From Maribellus maritimus (GTDB taxonomy: Bacteria > Bacteroidota > Bacteroidia > Bacteroidales > Prolixibacteraceae): a stretch of DNA of 64,000 nucleotides. Within the stretch, counting starts at the first letter, position 1. Every line of letters begins with the position of its first letter. Shown in pieces: positions 31,804 to 63,887 of this stretch. A program made the position numbers and the translations under genes. The notes beneath the pieces are model-generated. The model did no database searches and had not been told where the DNA came from. It worked only from the letters and a program-made list of their open reading frames with translations. The DNA is taken from assembly GCF_022267315.1 (NCBI RefSeq), contig NZ_JAIKLE010000009.1:62001-126000 (forward strand), written 5' to 3'.

Positions 31804-32226
31804 CTATTTCTTAATTTGAATTGAGTAAGAATAATTCTTTGTTTTGGATTTATTTTCAACGTTGTCATCTGTTTTTTTACCGGTAATCTTATAATGAATA
31901 TTGTTCTCAGGCGGCAGTTTAAAATTTATTTTGAACCTTTTTTTTGTTTTTAGCCGTATTCCCTGATTTTTAACACCTCCAAAACGAATATTTTTAATTA
32001 ACCGCGTGGCTTCTTCATCACACCCGTAACCCAACCCTTTTTGAATTTGTATTCCTTCAACATCGCCATTATCATTTATTTCAGCTACTAAATAAACAAT
32101 ACCTTCAACACGATGTGCAACCGCCTCTTCCGGGTAGGCTAAATTTTTTTCAATATACTTTTTTAACGCTTCTTTTCCTCCCGGGTATTCCGGGAGTTTA
32201 ATAAATTTCTTTTCTGTCTTTTTCAC
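31804..32226 (-). CDS. Stand-alone TonB C-terminal domain protein, no membrane anchor
   Basis: 140 residues. LPEYPGGKEALKKYIEKNLAYPEEA, GIVYLVAEINDNGDVEGIQIQKG and CDEEATRLIKNI form a TonB_C domain like those of the tandem TonB proteins at 49-50.5 kb. There is no N-terminal helix, proline-rich spacer or signal peptide. The first codon is GTG (32224-32226) and the protein opens KKTEKKFIKLPE, so it appears cytosolic or non-classically exported. TACATTTG at 32243-32250 gives a 10-nt leader. A disordered basic tail follows the domain. It may be a decayed TonB that lost its anchor or a regulator using the fold. Confidence 0.75.
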   Translation of the reverse strand: MKKTEKKFIKLPEYPGGKEALKKYIEKNLAYPEEAVAHRVEGIVYLVAEINDNGDVEGIQIQKGLGYGCDEEATRLIKNIRFGGVKNQGIRLKTKKRFKINFKLPPENNIHYKITGKKTDDNVENKSKTKNYSYSIQIKK

Positions 32227-45814: not shown

Positions 45815-47068
45815 TTATTCGTCAAAAAACATGTCTTCTTTTATTTTTTCGATGCGGTCTTGCGCGTAATTAAAATTTCGTGCTTTTGCTCCACCTTCTT
45901 TTAAATATATTTGATAATAGTTTAAAGCCAGCGTTTTATTGGCATTAAATTCTTCATAGGTAGTGGCAATCTCAAAAAGCACTTCAGGATTTTCGGGATC
46001 CATTTCATTCGCTTTTTTTAATGCAACTATCGATTCTTCGAACTTTCGCTGTTGACCAAAAATCTGCCCAAGATGATGATACATTTCAGGAAGGTAAGCT
46101 GGAGTTGCCGATTCGATTGCTGCTTTCATGTATGCCTCCGAATCCTCGTATTCAGCTAAACGTTTATAGTTGAGGCTCAAATAAAATAACACATAAGGAT
46201 CGTTGGCAACTTGCTCTGCACAGATATCCAGAATTGATATCGATTTTCTTTCATCTCGGTCAAAATAAAGACTAATTCCGTAATTCATTAAAACCTTATA
46301 TAACGAGTCGCCGCCAAACATAAAAGAATTTTCATAGGCACTTCTTGCCTCGGTGTATTGTTTTGACGAAAAATAATAATCGGCCTGTTCTTCAAAAAAC
46401 TGGGCATCTTCCGGAAAATTTTCCATTCCCCGCTCGATTGTTTCCTGTATTTTACCTGATGGCGGCAATAATTTATACAACCTTATTAAATTAAAATAAG
46501 ATGAATAATCACGCGGATTGGCTGCGATAACCTTCTCGTACAATGCTACTGCGGTAAAAACCTGCTTCCGCTGATATGCACAAAATGCGAACTGTTTATT
46601 CCAATATACGTTTGTAGTATCAACACTATAGATTTGCTCGAATATTGAATATGCTTTATTGTAATTTTTTAGGTTAATATAGTTTCGTCCCAATTTTGCT
46701 GCCAATGCCAAGTTATCAGGATCAACTTTTAGAGCTCTTTCATAATATGGAATAGCGTCGATATAATTTCCTAAAATAGAATGTGTTTCAGCAATTTCAT
46801 CTAAAATATCAAAATTACCTCCATCCAATTCATTTGCGCTTTCCAATGCAGAAATTGCTTCAGAATACATCTGGAGTTTGTTATAAATCAATCCTTTCTT
46901 TAAATATAAGTCTGTTTTTTTATCTTCTTTTAATTCCTGCTCAATGAGTTGCAAAGCTTTATTGTAGTCTTTATTTAGAATTAGCAAATCTATTTCTTCC
47001 TGAGAAAAAGCAAAACCAGACAGAATTACAAAAAAAAGGAGAATTAATTGTTTATTAAAATTATCCAT
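45815..47068 (-). CDS. Secreted tetratricopeptide repeat protein
   Basis: 417 residues. Signal peptide (1-22, LILLFFVILSGFAFSQ) followed by about ten TPR units throughout (AISALESANELDGGNFDILDEIAETHSILGNYIDAIPYYERALKVDPDN is one pair). No other domain. Periplasmic scaffold by inference. It lies 39 bp after the M56 gene on the same strand, making blaI-M56-TPR the likely operon. It may bind the M56 sensor's periplasmic part or the TonB proteins, but nothing in the sequence proves this. Confidence 0.88.
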   Translation of the reverse strand: MDNFNKQLILLFFVILSGFAFSQEEIDLLILNKDYNKALQLIEQELKEDKKTDLYLKKGLIYNKLQMYSEAISALESANELDGGNFDILDEIAETHSILGNYIDAIPYYERALKVDPDNLALAAKLGRNYINLKNYNKAYSIFEQIYSVDTTNVYWNKQFAFCAYQRKQVFTAVALYEKVIAANPRDYSSYFNLIRLYKLLPPSGKIQETIERGMENFPEDAQFFEEQADYYFSSKQYTEARSAYENSFMFGGDSLYKVLMNYGISLYFDRDERKSISILDICAEQVANDPYVLFYLSLNYKRLAEYEDSEAYMKAAIESATPAYLPEMYHHLGQIFGQQRKFEESIVALKKANEMDPENPEVLFEIATTYEEFNANKTLALNYYQIYLKEGGAKARNFNYAQDRIEKIKEDMFFDE

Positions 47069-47107: not shown

Positions 47108-48535
47108 TCAACTGTCTTCATCCATCGAAAAATTAATCGGCACCGTATAATTAACATTTACTACCTGCCCCTTTTGTTTTCCGGGTTTCCACTTGGGAAG
47201 ACTGTTTACAACACGAAGTGCTTCTTTGTCTAACGCAGGGTCTACACCGTGGTCAATTTTTGCATTTGCGATTGTTCCGTTTTTGGTTACTACAAAAGAA
47301 ACAAATACTTTACCCTGAATTCCTTTTTCAACAGCGACTTCGGGATAAATAATTGCATTGGCAATATATTTACTTAGTGAATTTTCACCTCCCGGAAATT
47401 CGGGCATATCCTCAACAATTAGAAAAACTTGCTCATCAGAATCTAACTGAGAATTCTCAAGCTGGCTTTTTTGAGGAGATAAAACAATATTGTTTCCAAC
47501 ACTATCGTACATGAATTCAATGTTGGAGCTTTCGGAAAGTAAATTTTTTATTTTTTCAATGCCGTCGACAGCTCCTTCAATCTTTAATTTTTGATCTAAA
47601 ATAGTTACTGTCATTGAGTCATTTTGCTTTACAGGAGTCATTTCATATGATTCTTTTTCTTCGCAGGCAAAAACGATAACCAATCCAACCGCAGCCAAAA
47701 CACCAAAAATCATTTTCCCGTTGGCAAATTTTGAAGATCTGATTCTTGACATCATTTTAATGCGCCTTTTTATCAGCGAATAATTGAAGTTATTGGCAAT
47801 TTCAAAATCATATCCAACAAATTGGTTTAAAAGCAGTTTCTTATAAAATCCACGCTTAACCCCCGACTTTAATACCGCCTGATCGGCCAGATATTCATGG
47901 TTTTCACGAATTGATCTTCGTAACATCCACATAAATGGATTAAACCATTGAAATGCAGAAAGTATTTCAAGAAAGATAATATCAAATGTATGTCCTTGTT
48001 TAATATGTTCCAACTCGTGCGCCAGCATTTTATGGTAACTAATATCTTTTTCCTGCGCCCGATGGACAAAAACATAACTCAGAAAAGAAAAAGGGCTAGT
48101 CTCTCTGTCAAGCAGAACAAGTTTAAAACCCTCGTATTTTTGAATTGGATTTTTAAAAATCATATACGTTAGGTCTCCAACCCGAAATAAAAACCGGTAG
48201 AGAAAAAAAGTTACTCCAAGCAGATACACTAGAATCAGAAAATTAGCTGAAAGAATTGCTTCTTCAATCGTCCCTGATAAATCTTTTCCATAAACCGTAA
48301 CTGCTTCTATGAGGTTTTTATACGGTGTTACGGTAATTTCCTCCAACAAAACCGGATTTGCGCTAAAAATCTGAAACTTTAAAAACGGCAGAACAAGTGA
48401 AAAGACAATCGCCCCCAACAAAAAGAAACGGTTGAGTTTAAAAAAAGTCTCTCTTCTCAAAAATAAAATATAAATGAGAGCAAGTACGGAGAGACTAATG
48501 CCGGATTCAAGAATAAAATTAATCGCGTGATTCAT
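47108..48535 (-). CDS. BlaR1-like M56 metallopeptidase with periplasmic TonB C-terminal domain
   Basis: 475 residues. Membrane helices near 10-25, 36-55, 95-118 and 280-297 surround the cytosolic gluzincin domain with HELEH (173-177) and the third ligand in ENHEYLADQ (211-219). After the last helix comes a periplasmic region ending in a TonB_C domain (about 375-475: EFPGGENSLSKYIANAIIYPE, GIQGKVFVSFVVTKNG, LDKEALRVVNSLPKWKPGKQKGQ) very like those of the two nearby TonB proteins. In BlaR1/MecR1 systems the peptidase cleaves the BlaI-type repressor when the periplasmic sensor fires. It overlaps blaI by 17 bp, so the pair is coupled. Confidence 0.92.
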   Translation of the reverse strand: MNHAINFILESGISLSVLALIYILFLRRETFFKLNRFFLLGAIVFSLVLPFLKFQIFSANPVLLEEITVTPYKNLIEAVTVYGKDLSGTIEEAILSANFLILVYLLGVTFFLYRFLFRVGDLTYMIFKNPIQKYEGFKLVLLDRETSPFSFLSYVFVHRAQEKDISYHKMLAHELEHIKQGHTFDIIFLEILSAFQWFNPFMWMLRRSIRENHEYLADQAVLKSGVKRGFYKKLLLNQFVGYDFEIANNFNYSLIKRRIKMMSRIRSSKFANGKMIFGVLAAVGLVIVFACEEKESYEMTPVKQNDSMTVTILDQKLKIEGAVDGIEKIKNLLSESSNIEFMYDSVGNNIVLSPQKSQLENSQLDSDEQVFLIVEDMPEFPGGENSLSKYIANAIIYPEVAVEKGIQGKVFVSFVVTKNGTIANAKIDHGVDPALDKEALRVVNSLPKWKPGKQKGQVVNVNYTVPINFSMDEDS

Positions 48536-48914
48536 TTTCAGCAGAATTTTCGTTTTCCAAATCGCGTTTTACATCCTCTGCCAATTCATCAAAATCAGCA
48601 AGACTCATGTTATCTTCTTTGGCAAAAAACGACACCATCTCCTGGAAAGATCCACTAAAATAGTTCCTCATAAAATTCTTCATAAAAGACCTGGTATATT
48701 CCTTTCTTGATATTAAAGGAAAATATTCGTGGGTTTTTCCATAGGCATTATGATCGACAAATCCTTTTTTCTCCAGAATTCTGATAATTGTGGAAACCGT
48801 GTTATACGCAGGTTTTGGTTCAGGTATTTTATCGATAATATCTTTTACGAACGCTTTCTCCTGTTTCCAGAGAAGCTGCATTATTTGTTCTTCCGCTTTT
48901 GTAAGTTCCTTCAT
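48519..48914 (-). CDS. BlaI/MecI-family transcriptional repressor
   Basis: 131 residues from ATG 48912-48914. A winged helix (ELTKAEEQIMQLLWKQEKAFVKDIIDKI, YNTVSTIIRILEKKGFVDHNAYGKTHEYFPLISRKEYT) and a C-terminal dimerisation helix. Such repressors bind inverted repeats over their own promoter and are inactivated by proteolysis. It precedes and overlaps the M56 gene. Two 16-bp inverted repeats sit 56-91 bp before its start codon, and the same sequence occurs in the tonB promoter. The 14-codon longer frame lacks domain support. Confidence 0.93.
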   Translation of the reverse strand: MKELTKAEEQIMQLLWKQEKAFVKDIIDKIPEPKPAYNTVSTIIRILEKKGFVDHNAYGKTHEYFPLISRKEYTRSFMKNFMRNYFSGSFQEMVSFFAKEDNMSLADFDELAEDVKRDLENENSAENESRD

Positions 48915-48969
48915 ACTGATTAAAAATTTGATAAAGTACAGCTGTTCCTGTAACAAAAACTATACCTAA

Positions 48970-49005
48970 AACTAATAGATTAGTTTTTAAACTAGCAGTT
49001 TAGTT
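48970..49005. promoter_or_regulatory. Paired inverted repeats upstream of blaI (predicted BlaI operators)
   Basis: AACTAA-TAGA-TTAGTT at 48970-48985 is perfect. AACTAG-CAGT-TTAGTT at 48990-49005 has one mismatch. Their starts are 20 bp apart, the same as in the tonB promoter. No exact -7 box is visible here, but they fall 56-91 bp before the blaI start. Confidence 0.75.
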
Positions 49006-49032
49006 ATTTTAGTTGAAATTTTATAAAAACCA

Positions 49033-49058
49033 AAACCTTCGGTCAACACCGAAGGTTT
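49033..49058 (-). terminator. Intrinsic terminator of the tandem tonB operon
   Basis: A perfect 11-bp stem AAACCTTCGGT/ACCGAAGGTTT with loop CAAC (minus-strand loop GTTG), followed on minus by TGGTTTTTATAAAATT. It separates the tonB operon from blaI. Confidence 0.85.
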
Positions 49059-49125
49059 AATTAAACAGGTATACATTTCCTGCTTGTATAAAAATAAGTA
49101 TATGGATTTTTTAACCGTTATTTTT

Positions 49126-49812
49126 TTACTGAAGTTGAAAATTAATTTTTGCATGGTAGTAAACTTTTACTGGCCTTCCTCTTTGTTTTCCCGGCTTAAA
49201 CCTCGGGAGACTGTTGATCACCCTGAGCGCTTCCGAATCCAATGATGCATCTACTCCGCGGAGAACCTCCGCGCTGCTTGCATTACCTTGTTCGTCAACT
49301 ACAAACTTTACAAAAACGGTTCCTTCTATACCATTCTCTTGTGCAATAACAGGATACTTAACTGACTTGGATATAAAATTATATAACGCTTTAATTCCGC
49401 CCGGAAACTCTGCCGGCTCTTCAACAATAGTAAATATTTCCGGTGCTTCCTCCTCTTCTTCCTCCATTGTTTCAATTACAGGAGCAACGTCGATAATAGT
49501 TTCATCGTCTGCTTCCGAATCTTCAATTTCCAGTTCGTCTTCGATTTCAACATCATCATCAACAATGTTCAAAACTTCAACAACTTGTGGTGGTGGCGGA
49601 GGTGGTGGTTTTACTTCAGGCTCACGTGTTACCGGAATAAATTCTTCTTCTACAACCATAGATTGAATTTCTCCCAGAGAACTAACTTTGGTTGGTTTTG
49701 TAGTCCATTCAAAAGCCAGAAGCGTGACGCCCAAGGCCACAACCAAACCAAATAAAAAAAACATGTTTCTTTTATTTTCAAGGTCGGCCTTTGCTGATTT
49801 TTTTTGTTCCAT
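49126..49812 (-). CDS. Energy transducer TonB, second copy of a tandem pair
   Basis: 228 residues. One N-terminal membrane helix (about 16-32, MFFLFGLVVALGVTLLAFEWT). The acidic linker contains EVKPPPPPPPQVVEVL. The C-terminal TonB_C domain (about 130-228) has EFPGGIKALYNFISKSVKYPVIAQENGIEG and LDSEALRVINSLPRFKPGKQRGRP. TonB transmits energy from ExbB/ExbD to outer-membrane receptors. It is about 85% identical to its upstream neighbour across the N-terminus, indicating recent duplication. The linker between helix and domain is short, as in many Bacteroidota TonBs. No exbBD is nearby. Confidence 0.9.
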   Translation of the reverse strand: MEQKKSAKADLENKRNMFFLFGLVVALGVTLLAFEWTTKPTKVSSLGEIQSMVVEEEFIPVTREPEVKPPPPPPPQVVEVLNIVDDDVEIEDELEIEDSEADDETIIDVAPVIETMEEEEEEAPEIFTIVEEPAEFPGGIKALYNFISKSVKYPVIAQENGIEGTVFVKFVVDEQGNASSAEVLRGVDASLDSEALRVINSLPRFKPGKQRGRPVKVYYHAKINFQLQ

Positions 49813-49843
49813 TGCTTTAGCTTTTTAAAGTGTGACAGTTTTA

Positions 49844-50536
49844 TTATTGCAACTGAAAATTAATTACTGCATTGTAATACACTTTTACCGGTTTTCCACG
49901 CTGTTTTCCGGGTTTAAATTTTGGAAGACTGTTTATCACACGTAGTGCTTCGGAATCCAATGAAGAATCTACGCCACGAAGAACTTCTGCCCTGCTTGTA
50001 TTTCCTTGTTCATCGATTACAAATTTTACATACACTTTTCCCTGAATACCGTTTTCCTGAGCAATCACCGGATAATTTACATGGTCACTCAAATATTTAT
50101 ATAAAGCCCGGTCGCCTCCGGGAAACTCAGCAGGTTCCTCAATGATATTAAATAAAATCTGCTCCTCCTCTTCTTCCTCTTCTGCCATAGTAGTAATTAC
50201 CGGATTAATATCAATTGCTGTTTCGTCATCGATTTCACTATCTTCAATTTCCAGTTCATCCTTAATTTCAACATCATCATCCACAATGTTTAAAACTTCA
50301 ACAACTTTTGGTGGCGGTGGCGGTGGCGGTGGTTTCACTTCAGGCTCACGTGTTACCGGAATAAATTCTTCTTCTACAACCATTGACTGCATTTCTCCCA
50401 GTGACGCAGCTTTATTTGGCTTGCTGGTCCACTCAAATGCGAGAAGTGTGACACCTAAAGCTGCAACTAACCCGAATAAAAAGAACATATTCCTTTTATT
50501 CTCAAGATCGGCTTTTTGCGATTTTTTCTGTTCCAT
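49844..50536 (-). CDS. Energy transducer TonB, first copy of a tandem pair
   Basis: 230 residues from ATG 50534-50536. Same layout as the following gene: MEQKKSQKADLENKRNMFFLFG helix, KPPPPPPPPKVVEVL, acidic linker, TonB_C domain ending NFQLQ. The two genes are 31 bp apart and share a promoter 50630-50660, which carries two predicted BlaI operators. The linkers differ most (MAEEEEEEEQILF here against MEEEEEEAPEIF), while the membrane helix and C-terminal domain are nearly identical. Confidence 0.9.
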   Translation of the reverse strand: MEQKKSQKADLENKRNMFFLFGLVAALGVTLLAFEWTSKPNKAASLGEMQSMVVEEEFIPVTREPEVKPPPPPPPPKVVEVLNIVDDDVEIKDELEIEDSEIDDETAIDINPVITTMAEEEEEEEQILFNIIEEPAEFPGGDRALYKYLSDHVNYPVIAQENGIQGKVYVKFVIDEQGNTSRAEVLRGVDSSLDSEALRVINSLPKFKPGKQRGKPVKVYYNAVINFQLQ

Positions 50537-50629
50537 AACTTTTAAATTAATGTTTAACAATTCTCTTTCCTCGTTCGAATTCTATATTCAGCCTTTGTCC
50601 GCAGCCATTTTTTTTCATTTCTATGTAAA

Positions 50630-50660
50630 CAAACATAAAACTAAATATTTAGTTTTCAAA
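50630..50660 (-). promoter_or_regulatory. Predicted promoter of the tandem tonB operon
   Basis: TTTG (50657-50660), exactly 19 bp, TATGTTTG (50630-50637) on the minus strand. Both boxes are exact. The leader to the first ATG is about 87 nt. Confidence 0.78.
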
Positions 50661-50674
50661 CTAAAATATTAGTT
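50639..50674. promoter_or_regulatory. Paired BlaI-type operators over the tonB promoter
   Basis: AACTAA-ATAT-TTAGTT at 50639-50654, part of a 20-bp perfect palindrome (50637-50656), fills the promoter spacer. AACTAA-AATA-TTAGTT at 50659-50674 overlaps the -33 box. The starts are 20 bp apart. Bound repressor would block RNA polymerase. Confidence 0.8.
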
Positions 50675-50720
50675 ATTTTTCAAATCCCAGCACAAACTAC
50701 TCACATACAGTAAAATATAA

Positions 50721-50736
50721 AACTAAAAGATTAGTT
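50721..50736. promoter_or_regulatory. Third BlaI-type inverted repeat
   Basis: AACTAA-AAGA-TTAGTT, perfect arms, 62 bp from the second tonB operator. It may be an auxiliary operator for tonB, or belong to the short plus-strand ORF that starts 6 bp later. Confidence 0.65.
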
Positions 50737-50741
50737 CACTT

Positions 50742-50852
50742 ATGAAAAATCCAAAAGGAAGGCTTGAGGAGAAAATAACATTGAGAAAATTATTGGTACA
50801 CGCAGGAATTAAAACCGATATTGATTTTGTATATAAAACTATTCAAGAATAG
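50742..50852 (+). CDS. Possible 36-residue small protein
   Basis: A short frame, ATG at 50742 to TAG at 50852, reading MKNPKGRLEEKITLRKLL and on to DFVYKTIQE. It is charged and could form one amphipathic helix; no signal or membrane segment. It lies directly after a BlaI-type repeat and overlaps the end of the convergent amidase gene by 14 bp. There is no recognisable promoter or family, so it may be chance. Confidence 0.25.
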   Translation: MKNPKGRLEEKITLRKLLVHAGIKTDIDFVYKTIQE

Positions 50853-61454: not shown

Positions 61455-63887
61455 ATGAGATTTGGATTTTTTGACGACCTCAACAGAGAATATGTAATAA
61501 CCAGCCCAAAAACCCCCTGGCCATGGATCAACTATTTAGGCAATGATGATTTTTTCAGCCTAATATCAAACACAGGTGGAGGATATAGCTTCCACAAAGA
61601 TCCACGATTCAGGAGAATTACCCGTTTCAGATACAACAATGTACCCATTGACGACAATGGAAAGTACTTTTATATAAAAGAAGGTGAAACAATATGGTCG
61701 CCGGGATGGAAACCGGTTAAAACAGAATTGGATAATTATGAATGTCGCCATGGGTTGGGCTATACAAAAATTTCAGGAGCAAAGAATCTACTTTCCGCAT
61801 TGGTAACCTATTTTGTTCCACTGGGTAAATCTGCCGAGATTCAGCGTGTTCAGTTAAAGAATAATGGTACTGTTCAAAAAAGACTCAAATTGTTTTCATT
61901 TGTTGAATGGAATCTTTGGAATGCATTAGATGACATGACAAATTTCCAGAGAAACTATTCCATTGGCGAAGTTGAACTCGACGGCTCTGCGATATATCAT
62001 AAAAGCGAATATCGCGAACGCAGAAATCACTATGCATTTTATACTGTAAACAAAAAGATCGACGGGTTTGATACCGATCGGGAATCATTTGTAGGATTAT
62101 ATAATTCTTATGCCGATCCGGATGTAGTTCGTGAAGGCAGATCAAAAAATACAGTGGCCCACGGATGGTCGCCCGTTGCTTCTCATATGCTTGAAATTGA
62201 ATTGAATCCGGGAGAAGAAAAAGACCTCATTTTTATTTTGGGGTACATAGAAAACAAAGATGAAGAGAAATGGGAATCAAAAAAAATAATCAACAAAACA
62301 AAAGCGAAACAACTTATTTCTGAATTAAATACTCCTGAACAAATTGAAAAAGAGCTATATAAACTAAGCGAATATTGGACCAAATTACTTTCCAATTTCC
62401 AGGTAAAGAGCCATGATAAAAAAATGGATCGTATGGTTAATCTCTGGAACCAGTATCAGAATATGGTAACCTTTAACATGTCTCGTTCCGCGTCGTATTT
62501 TGAATCGGGAATTGGCCGTGGAATGGGATTCCGCGATTCGAACCAGGATTTAATCGGCTTTGTGCATCTAATACCTGAAAAAGCTCGCGAACGAATTTTA
62601 GATTTAGCTGCCACGCAGTTGGAAGATGGTGGCGCTTATCACCAGTACCAGCCACTTACAAAAAAAGGAAATTCCGATATTGGCGGGAATTTTAATGACG
62701 ATCCACTTTGGCTGATTCTTTCAACTACTTTATACATCAAGGAAACCGGCGATTTTTCCATTCTAAAAGAAATGGTCGCTTACAATAACGATGAAAGTAA
62801 AGCACAACCGCTGCTCGACCATTTAAATCGCTCTTTTTTTCATGTAACAAATAACCTGGGACCGCATGGTTTGCCGTTAATTGGTCGTGCAGACTGGAAC
62901 GACTGTCTAAACCTGAACTGTTTTTCAAACAACCCCGATGAATCGTTTCAAACTACAGAAAATAAAACAAACGGTGTCGCCGAGTCGGTGATGATTGCCG
63001 GAATGTTTGTACTTTACGGTAAAGATTATGCTCAATTATTAAAACAACTGGATAAAACTGTTGAGGCAGAGTTTGTGTTCCGGGAGGTAGAAAAAATGAA
63101 TCAGGCCATCGCCCTGCGCGGATGGGATGGTGAATGGTTTTTAAGAGCTTATGATTTTTATGGTAAAAAAATAGGAAGCACCGAAAATAGAGAAGGAAAG
63201 ATTTTTATAGAATCAAACGGATTCTGCACTATGGCGGCAGTAGGAAAAGAAAAAGGCTGGCCGGAAAAAGCACTTGATTCCGTAAAAAAATATCTTGATT
63301 GCGAATACGGAATTGTATTGAATAATCCTCCCTATTCAGAATATGATCTGAGCAAAGGAGAAATTACCAGTTACCCGGAAGGATATAAAGAAAATGCCGG
63401 AATTTTCTGTCACAATAATCCGTGGATTATAATTGGCGAAACCGAAGCCGGCAATGGAGACCAGGCTTTTGAATATTACCGGAAAATTTGCCCGTCCTAT
63501 TTGGAGGAGATTAGTGATTTACATCGTACAGAACCTTATGTTTATTCGCAAATGATTGCAGGTAAAGATGCGTGGAAACCCGGCGAAGCAAAAAATTCGT
63601 GGCTCACCGGAACTGCAGCCTGGAACTTTTTTGCCATCTCACAACATATCCTCGGAATTCAACCTGATTATGACGGACTCGTGATAAACCCGTGTATTCC
63701 CAGAAAATGGGATAGTTTTTCGATACAGCGAAAATTCAGAGGAACCACGTACAATATAAAAGTCTCAAATCCTTTACATCTTTCAAAAGGCGTAGCGGAA
63801 ATTTTCGTTGACGGGAAACCAATCGAAGGAAACAAAATTCCGTTACAATCGGAAAGTAGTTGCGAAGTGCTAGTAGCATTAGGATAA
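61455..63887 (+). CDS. GH94 glycoside phosphorylase (cellobiose/chitobiose type)
   Basis: 810 residues. [29 protein letters not shown] is the family N-terminus. The catalytic region is [14 protein letters not shown] with candidate acid D483 (D480 also conserved), and [16 protein letters not shown]-like GWDGEWF follows. GH94 enzymes split beta-linked disaccharides with phosphate, giving an alpha-sugar-1-phosphate without using ATP. There is no signal peptide, so it acts on imported disaccharide. The substrate (cellobiose, N,N'-diacetylchitobiose, laminaribiose) cannot be decided. I start at ATG 61455 rather than an upstream TTG (61437), on family alignment and promoter position. Confidence 0.93.

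Follow-up and report, generated by a model that had tools for sequence, protein, structure and literature searches.

Background

BlaI/BlaR1 systems classically answer beta-lactams. What, then, is the role of a BlaI-type repressor that is encoded next to a tandem pair of tonB genes, i.e. genes for the protein that drives outer-membrane uptake? The question is raised by a stretch of 64,000 nucleotides of Maribellus maritimus (GCF_022267315.1, NZ_JAIKLE010000009.1, positions 62,001 to 126,000 of the forward strand; hereafter the window), which on its minus strand carries tonB1 and tonB2, then blaI, the gene for an M56 membrane metalloprotease and a gene for a TPR-repeat protein. We found that pairs of palindromic boxes precede both the tonB genes and blaI, that these pairs are real and locus-specific, and that the protease ends in a TonB_C domain. 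The presence of a TonB tip in place of a penicillin sensor suggests that the circuit senses TonB-related events and not antibiotics. Judged from the sequence, we assign a probability of roughly 0.55 to the reading that the locus encodes an autoregulated repressor-protease relay which responds to such events and which, within the genus, derepresses an extra TonB set.

Many Bacteroidota rely on a multitude of TonB-dependent transporters, which have to share TonB. Should the relay act as a sensor of TonB sufficiency, it would constitute a widespread Bacteroidota circuit that matches the supply of the energy transducer to the number of TonB-dependent transporters. The locus forms a concrete and testable circuit, with operator, repressor and sensor all identified, and it indicates that the BlaI/M56 pair, known from antibiotics, has another type of sensor in this phylum. 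The genes concerned are:

49844..50536, minus strand: tonB1, 230 amino acids, ATG at 50536; N-terminal membrane segment, Pro-rich linker and TonB_C (TonB_C E 7e-19, and sequence)
49126..49812, minus strand: tonB2, tandem copy of tonB1, 228 amino acids (TonB_C E 8e-20)
48519..48914, minus strand: blaI, BlaI/MecI-type repressor, 131 amino acids, ATG at 48914 (PF03965, E 3.4e-34)
47108..48535, minus strand: M56 membrane metalloprotease with C-terminal TonB_C, 475 amino acids (Pfam Peptidase_M56 and TonB_C)
45815..47068, minus strand: TPR-repeat protein, 417 amino acids, probably secreted given an apparent signal peptide (Pfam TPR families)

The M56 frame and the 3' end of blaI share 17 bp.

Results and discussion

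Tandem operator boxes

The preliminary description of this DNA, made from the sequence alone, had reported five AACTAA-N4-TTAGTT repeats, namely two pairs with starts 20 bp apart and a fifth copy. All five are present at the places given and the 20-bp distance holds for both pairs; the copy at 48990, however, is not exact but carries one mismatch (AACTAG).

48970..48985: operator box before blaI, gene-proximal, exact (box scan, shuffles)
48990..49005: operator box before blaI, gene-distal, one mismatch (box scan)
50639..50654: operator box lying wholly between the -33 and -7 elements of the tonB promoter (19-bp spacer), exact (sequence, box scan, shuffles)
50659..50674: second operator box at the tonB promoter, sharing two bases with its -33 element, exact (sequence, box scan, shuffles)
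50721..50736: auxiliary box upstream of the tonB-promoter pair, at a distance of 62 bp, exact (box scan, shuffles; spacing in relatives)
50630..50660, minus strand: tonB promoter, TTTG-N19-TATGTTTG (sequence; elements kept in relatives)

Could these boxes be chance palindromes in AT-rich DNA? At relaxed stringency the pattern is indeed unremarkable: with at most one mismatch it matches 34 places in the genome of M. maritimus (7,334,083 bases, i.e. 7.33 Mb) and the reversed control pattern 118, and with at most two mismatches the window holds 14 boxes where 8.4 are expected, so that only exact or near-exact, paired boxes stand out. Those do: against the four exact boxes observed, 100 dinucleotide shuffles of the window yielded none (mean 0.00, maximum 0). 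Genome-wide, exact boxes occur at five places, four of them at the blaI-tonB locus, and double boxes (starts 20 bp apart, at most two mismatches) at two places, both at the locus, versus none for the control. As the control has nine exact matches in the same genome, a lone box elsewhere is uninformative. The paired layout recurs in relatives, with a double box in 41 of 60 genomes of the family versus 4 of 60 for the reversed control on the forward strand. Chance, already contradicted by this conservation, retains a practically negligible probability.

The fifth box has counterparts as well. Where a third box is found 30-100 bp upstream of the pair (11 loci, window included), it lies at 61-64 bp in nine; the exceptions are L056 (68 bp) and L063 (84 bp). 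A distance of some six turns of the helix suggests that this box is an auxiliary operator on the same DNA face. The alternative, that it serves a divergent gene, is unlikely: the frame at 50742-50852 encodes only 36 amino acids without a Pfam match, and the box of the nearest named relative (L146) is found 34 bp past the upstream Nit frame, which leaves no room for such a gene. With the 62-bp spacing kept in relatives, the fifth box is probably not a divergent gene's operator.

Elsewhere in the genome, a lone exact box (L001:1501-1516, contig C115) lies 8 bp before the start codon of an RND-type adaptor. Membership of this gene in the regulon is not supported and the single box is probably due to chance; of 20 other genus genomes searched, five (G053, G061, G067, G073 and G075) have a match to the adaptor at E 1e-60 or better, and in none of the five is an exact box found near it.

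Conservation of operator and gene order

Searched with the BlaI protein, 55 of the 60 family genomes yielded matches, from which we retained as family loci the 40 places outside the M. maritimus genome with at least 57% BlaI identity, leaving out two partial pieces of G045. All 40 have a box with at most one mismatch upstream of blaI, and 39 have the 20-bp pair at up to two mismatches, the spacing in L090 being 21 bp; in L054, L060 and L066 the boxes stand solely before a TonB_C gene ahead of blaI. Among the best 80 of 582 relatives in named genomes, a sample that overlaps partly with the family genomes, a box with at most one mismatch is found within 1.5 kb upstream of blaI in 77, a box pair in 62 and an M56 gene next after blaI in 76. 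The genera named in the records of these relatives include Draconibacterium, Maribellus, Sunxiuqinia, Mangrovibacterium, Prolixibacter, Marinifilum, Labilibaculum, Pontibacter, Rufibacter, Adhaeribacter and Roseivirga; two records bear the title Candidatus Aminicenantes. Related loci are not independent samples and some of the assemblies are incomplete, but the retention of the boxes across these relatives implies that the operator is widespread in Bacteroidota. A TPR-like gene is next after the M56 gene in most of the 40 fetched relatives, so that the conserved core consists of blaI, the M56-TonB_C gene and usually a TPR gene. In six Marinifilum/Labilibaculum loci (L181, L182, L183, L184, L190 and L208) two TonB-like genes directly follow the M56 gene. 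(Relatives were found with phmmer at E 1e-5; TonB classes, as used below, were set by a simple rule and by eye.)

Promoters and predicted repression

On the minus strand the tonB promoter reads -33 TTTG (50660-50657), a spacer of 19 bases (50656-50638) and -7 TATGTTTG (50637-50630). As proposed in the preliminary description, one box (50639-50654) lies entirely inside this spacer and the next (50659-50674) shares two bases with the -33 element. A promoter that encloses one box and overlaps another makes direct repression of the tonB pair by BlaI very likely. In terms of sequence, palindromic operators overlap the regulated promoters, that of the repressor's own gene included; direct repression, likewise anticipated, is thereby strongly supported, and the box pair before blaI argues for autoregulation. 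Among the 42 distal pairs of the window and fetched relatives, TAnnTTTG is found at the same place in 32 and both promoter elements in 23, versus none of the 27 blaI-adjacent pairs, the two classes being sorted by distance only, so that a few blaI-proximal pairs, such as those of L062, L081 and L089, fall among the distal ones. That none of the 27 has both elements points to a blaI promoter of another or weaker type.

Two further features accompany the distal promoter. Where no tonB gene lies between the operator pairs, it reads into a tiny open reading frame (11-17 amino acids from the last ATG) that ends in Pro-stop, often Pro-Pro-stop, in 14 of 22 intervals (L063, L065, L067, L068, L070, L071, L074, L076, L078, L079, L080, L084, L085 and L087), versus a mean of 0.41 and a maximum of 4 in 500 dinucleotide shuffles; L089 is left out of this count, and the loci are related, with several per genus. 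Thirteen of the 14 are followed, after no more than a few bases, by a run of at least six T, with a GC hairpin in some, and L154 has such a frame as well (10 amino acids). The arrangement looks like a leader peptide or attenuator before blaI. Secondly, the palindrome GGATATCC stands exactly four bases after the -7 TTTG in L052, L058, L060, L062, L066, L072, L077, L082, L147 and L154; GGAATTCC takes its position in L071, L075 and L088, and the palindrome is absent from the window. TTTG-N4-GGATATCC has 0 to 6 matches per genome (41 genomes).

The repressor

BlaI dimers bind palindromes of the kind described here. The protein of the locus belongs to the Penicillinase_R family, with winged-helix and dimerisation domain along its full length; its profile aligns to MecI (1okr) over positions 3-114 (E 6.1e-16), and its VSFFAKEDN lies opposite the VLNFVEKED of MecI, with F96-F97 opposite N-F, which we take to be the bond at which MecI is cut by its partner protease. 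It is not a penicillinase repressor in the strict sense, as it scores below the NCBIfam cut-offs for BlaI/MecI (49.9 bits versus 180, and 48.1 versus 250). The copper repressors CopY/CopR belong to the same superfamily and also have two operators before the regulated operon (available portion of PMC7253601), but the operator core of CopY is TACANNTGTA, and the BlaI described here is followed by an M56 gene. Its 131-residue translation contains no cysteine and therefore no CxC metal site such as that at the C-terminus of CopY, and copper sensing was rejected on this ground.

The sensor protease

To which signal would such a repressor respond? Its M56 partner combines an intact protease motif with a TonB_C tail. 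We aligned the M56 proteins of the window and of 38 of the 40 family relatives (those of L069 and L085 are cut by contig ends and were left out): TonB_C is matched by Pfam in all 39, and H173, E174 and H177, i.e. the HExxH motif, are invariant, as is a second cluster (E211, N212, H213, E214 and D218). For the relatives, a simple hydropathy scan predicts membrane segments around residues 8, 31-41, 90-111 and roughly 273, of which the last precedes the tail. In the best 80 of the 582 named relatives TonB_C is fused in 71 of 77 M56-bearing loci; the six exceptions are L154, L174 and L178, which reach a contig end, L187 and L219, which are without TonB_C, and L204, where a separate frame encodes it.

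The preliminary description set the locus beside the BlaI/BlaR1 systems but overlooked the TonB_C tail of the sensor. Pfam matched no penicillin-binding domain in the M56 proteins, TonB_C being found instead of the sensor domain of BlaR1. The system is of the BlaI-M56 kind, with the domain and operator features of the repressor and with a changed sensor. Membership of BlaI and M56 in the families of the classical pair would suit a conventional response to beta-lactams or wall damage, in which the TonB_C tail would contact peptidoglycan or wall fragments and the TonB genes would be passengers. We consider such a response unlikely, in view of the missing penicillin-binding domain, of a score of 32.7 bits with NCBIfam blaR1_generic (cut-off 400), and of the lack of any beta-lactamase or penicillin-binding protein among the eight neighbouring proteins given to Pfam. 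The M56 profile matches BlaR1 (8exp) weakly (E 0.0013). M56 partners bring about cleavage of BlaI upon a signal at their extracytoplasmic domain (PMC7593790, in the portion available); that the protease ends in a TonB domain implies that this signal has likely changed.

The tail is closest to the tip of a box-free TonB encoded elsewhere in the genome. It is 71% identical to the domain of this TonB-a (contig C66), and for five sensor tails and seven TonB-a domains of the genus the mean identity is 77% (67-84, 35 pairs), versus 59% to TonB-b and 57% to the box-controlled TonBs.

TonB sets and what the locus controls

The products of tonB1 and tonB2 are 81% identical and have the parts of a transducer, i.e. 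a membrane anchor and a Pro-rich linker, both read from the sequence, followed by TonB_C. Judged on the TonB proteins alone they thereby resemble the TonB of TonB-ExbB-ExbD systems, from which the locus differs in that tonB is doubled and placed under a BlaI-type operator, with a box-free TonB pair elsewhere. The genome encodes 12 TonB_C domains above the Pfam cut-off (those of M56 proteins included). Of the second tonB pair, on C66, one copy shares 70% identity with tonB1 and tonB2 and the other about 45%; the stretch examined upstream of this pair holds no box with up to three mismatches. In 14 of 21 genus genomes (M. maritimus included) an exact box has a strong match to the N-terminus of an anchored TonB at a distance of 92-132 bp, and all 14 hold another anchored TonB elsewhere.

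An inducible TonB supply, as the preliminary description envisaged, is therefore plausible for the genus, in which a second TonB set stands under a BlaI operator, but several results weigh against extending it further and against the reading preferred here. In only 8 of the 40 family loci (L051, L053, L054, L055, L056, L057, L059 and L061) does an anchored TonB lie between operator and blaI; the scan of related genomes that had been proposed thus bears out the repeat next to blaI throughout, but next to tonB in a minority of these loci. In that interval 26 have no TonB_C gene at all. A feedback on TonB supply can thus not be the general role of the system. Moreover, 19 of the 60 family genomes lack a double box, and sensor tails and TonB-a domains are no more alike within genomes (77.4%) than between them (77.0%), i.e. 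there is no sign of tight pairwise co-evolution. In the remaining six loci (L052, L058, L060, L062, L066 and L073) the TonB_C protein of this interval is secreted and has neither anchor nor Pro-rich linker, and the split as a whole indicates that TonB supply is a lineage-specific output. The genus relatives examined over their full length (L052, L053, L055 and L057) do not show the tandem of two anchored TonBs.

These counts bear on another explanation, namely a general sensor of envelope stress. TonB_C would then serve as a generic module for protein binding, TonB would be one lineage-specific output in this genus, and the secreted TonB_C and TPR proteins would be adaptors that tune the sensor. 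The recurrent core, which is defined by blaI, M56-TonB_C and usually TPR, would be in line with it, as would the secreted TonB_C-only genes behind the operator in 11 of the 40 loci (six of these without an anchored TonB) and a paralogous M56 protein on contig C99 that carries TonB_C together with CarboxypepD_reg and a receptor Plug. Nevertheless, the sensor tail is specifically near one TonB tip and does not look like a diverged generic module, and we regard this explanation as doubtful, though worth serious consideration.

A possible mechanism

A relay that senses TonB-related events could work as follows. One BlaI dimer would occupy each 16-bp box. The tonB promoter would be covered by way of two boxes on the same face, 20 bp apart, and another such pair lies before blaI-M56-TPR; with box pairs at both promoters, both units are expected to be off at rest. 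The M56 protein would be switched on when its extracytoplasmic TonB_C tail meets (or loses) a partner, for which the TonB boxes of outer-membrane transporters that are unoccupied by the box-free TonB appear the most likely candidates. Activated M56 would then cut BlaI, resulting in more sensor and, in this genus, in a second TonB set. The boxes and their rarity, the promoter overlap, the conservation, the domain fusion and the intact protease motif are seen directly in the sequences, whereas binding and cleavage of BlaI, the nature of the signal and a feedback on the supply of TonB are what we infer from them. Its most specific form, in which the M56 tip samples free TonB boxes of transporters, cuts BlaI when these are in excess and thereby raises the TonB supply, is put forward tentatively, as a possibility that we hold to be real but short of probable.

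Relation to known systems

The nearest relatives in design are BlaI-BlaR1 and MecI-MecR1 of Staphylococcus, which are induced by beta-lactams and share the repressor family, the M56 protease, the two operators and autoregulation, but have a penicillin-binding sensor where the present locus has a TonB_C sensor and TonB targets; their box is TACA/TGTA (available portion of PMC7253601) instead of AACTAA-N4-TTAGTT. In Clostridium thermocellum, BlaI and BlaR1 genes likewise form a small, autoregulated, operon-sized regulon, and the available portion of that report (PMC8457756) names neither TonB genes nor a TonB_C sensor. Cell-surface signalling via transporter, anti-sigma and sigma factor (PMC7593790, in the same portion as above) also connects outer-membrane transport to transcription by regulated proteolysis; there the anti-sigma factor is cut, whereas here it would be the repressor, and the link to a transporter is a conjecture. 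The accessible portions of two further papers merely tabulate a BlaI gene and an M56 gene of P. gingivalis (PMC10470040) or name the BlaI family in a list (PMC5613140), and term searches of PMC12204202, PMC12578637, PMC12611786 and PMC13185528 returned nothing on a BlaI/M56-TonB_C system; what looked like matches to M56 and BlaI in PMC12578637 proved to be a catalogue number and the name of an author. We found no description of a BlaI/M56 system with a TonB_C sensor in the partly accessible PMC literature, which leaves most subscription journals outside and beyond which one may exist, nor, in the portions of it searched, of the matching of TonB supply to demand in Bacteroidota.

Paralogous systems and further TonB_C proteins

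The genome of M. maritimus contains five blaI genes, that of the locus included. For the paralog on C99 (L226:6028-9656) a separate tandem box was identified, AACTGA-N4-TCAGTT with a 20-bp distance, and 0 of 500 shuffles yielded an equally good pair. That this BlaI comes with a box and an M56-TonB_C partner of its own suggests a separate recognition box for each repressor. The Plug domain of the C99 partner is that of a TonB-dependent receptor. Both sides of the contact between TonB and transporter are thus represented among the domains of some M56 sensors, which is the strongest hint for what is sensed. The M56 protein of C130 also has TonB_C; those of C11 and C55 have none. An automatic test for 16-bp palindromes supported a tandem operator for C99 only; it gave none for C130 and C11, and for C55 a poor pair, equalled by 33 of 500 shuffles. 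Visual inspection shows two 17-bp AACTAT-N5-ATAGTT repeats at C11, which are outside the reach of that test.

TonB_C also occurs apart from these systems. A further domain lies on the minus strand of the window (31915-32145) in an open frame of 171 codons, and on contig C127 (L235:4813-6246) a MORN-repeat protein with an apparent signal peptide carries TonB_C, representing another use of the domain.

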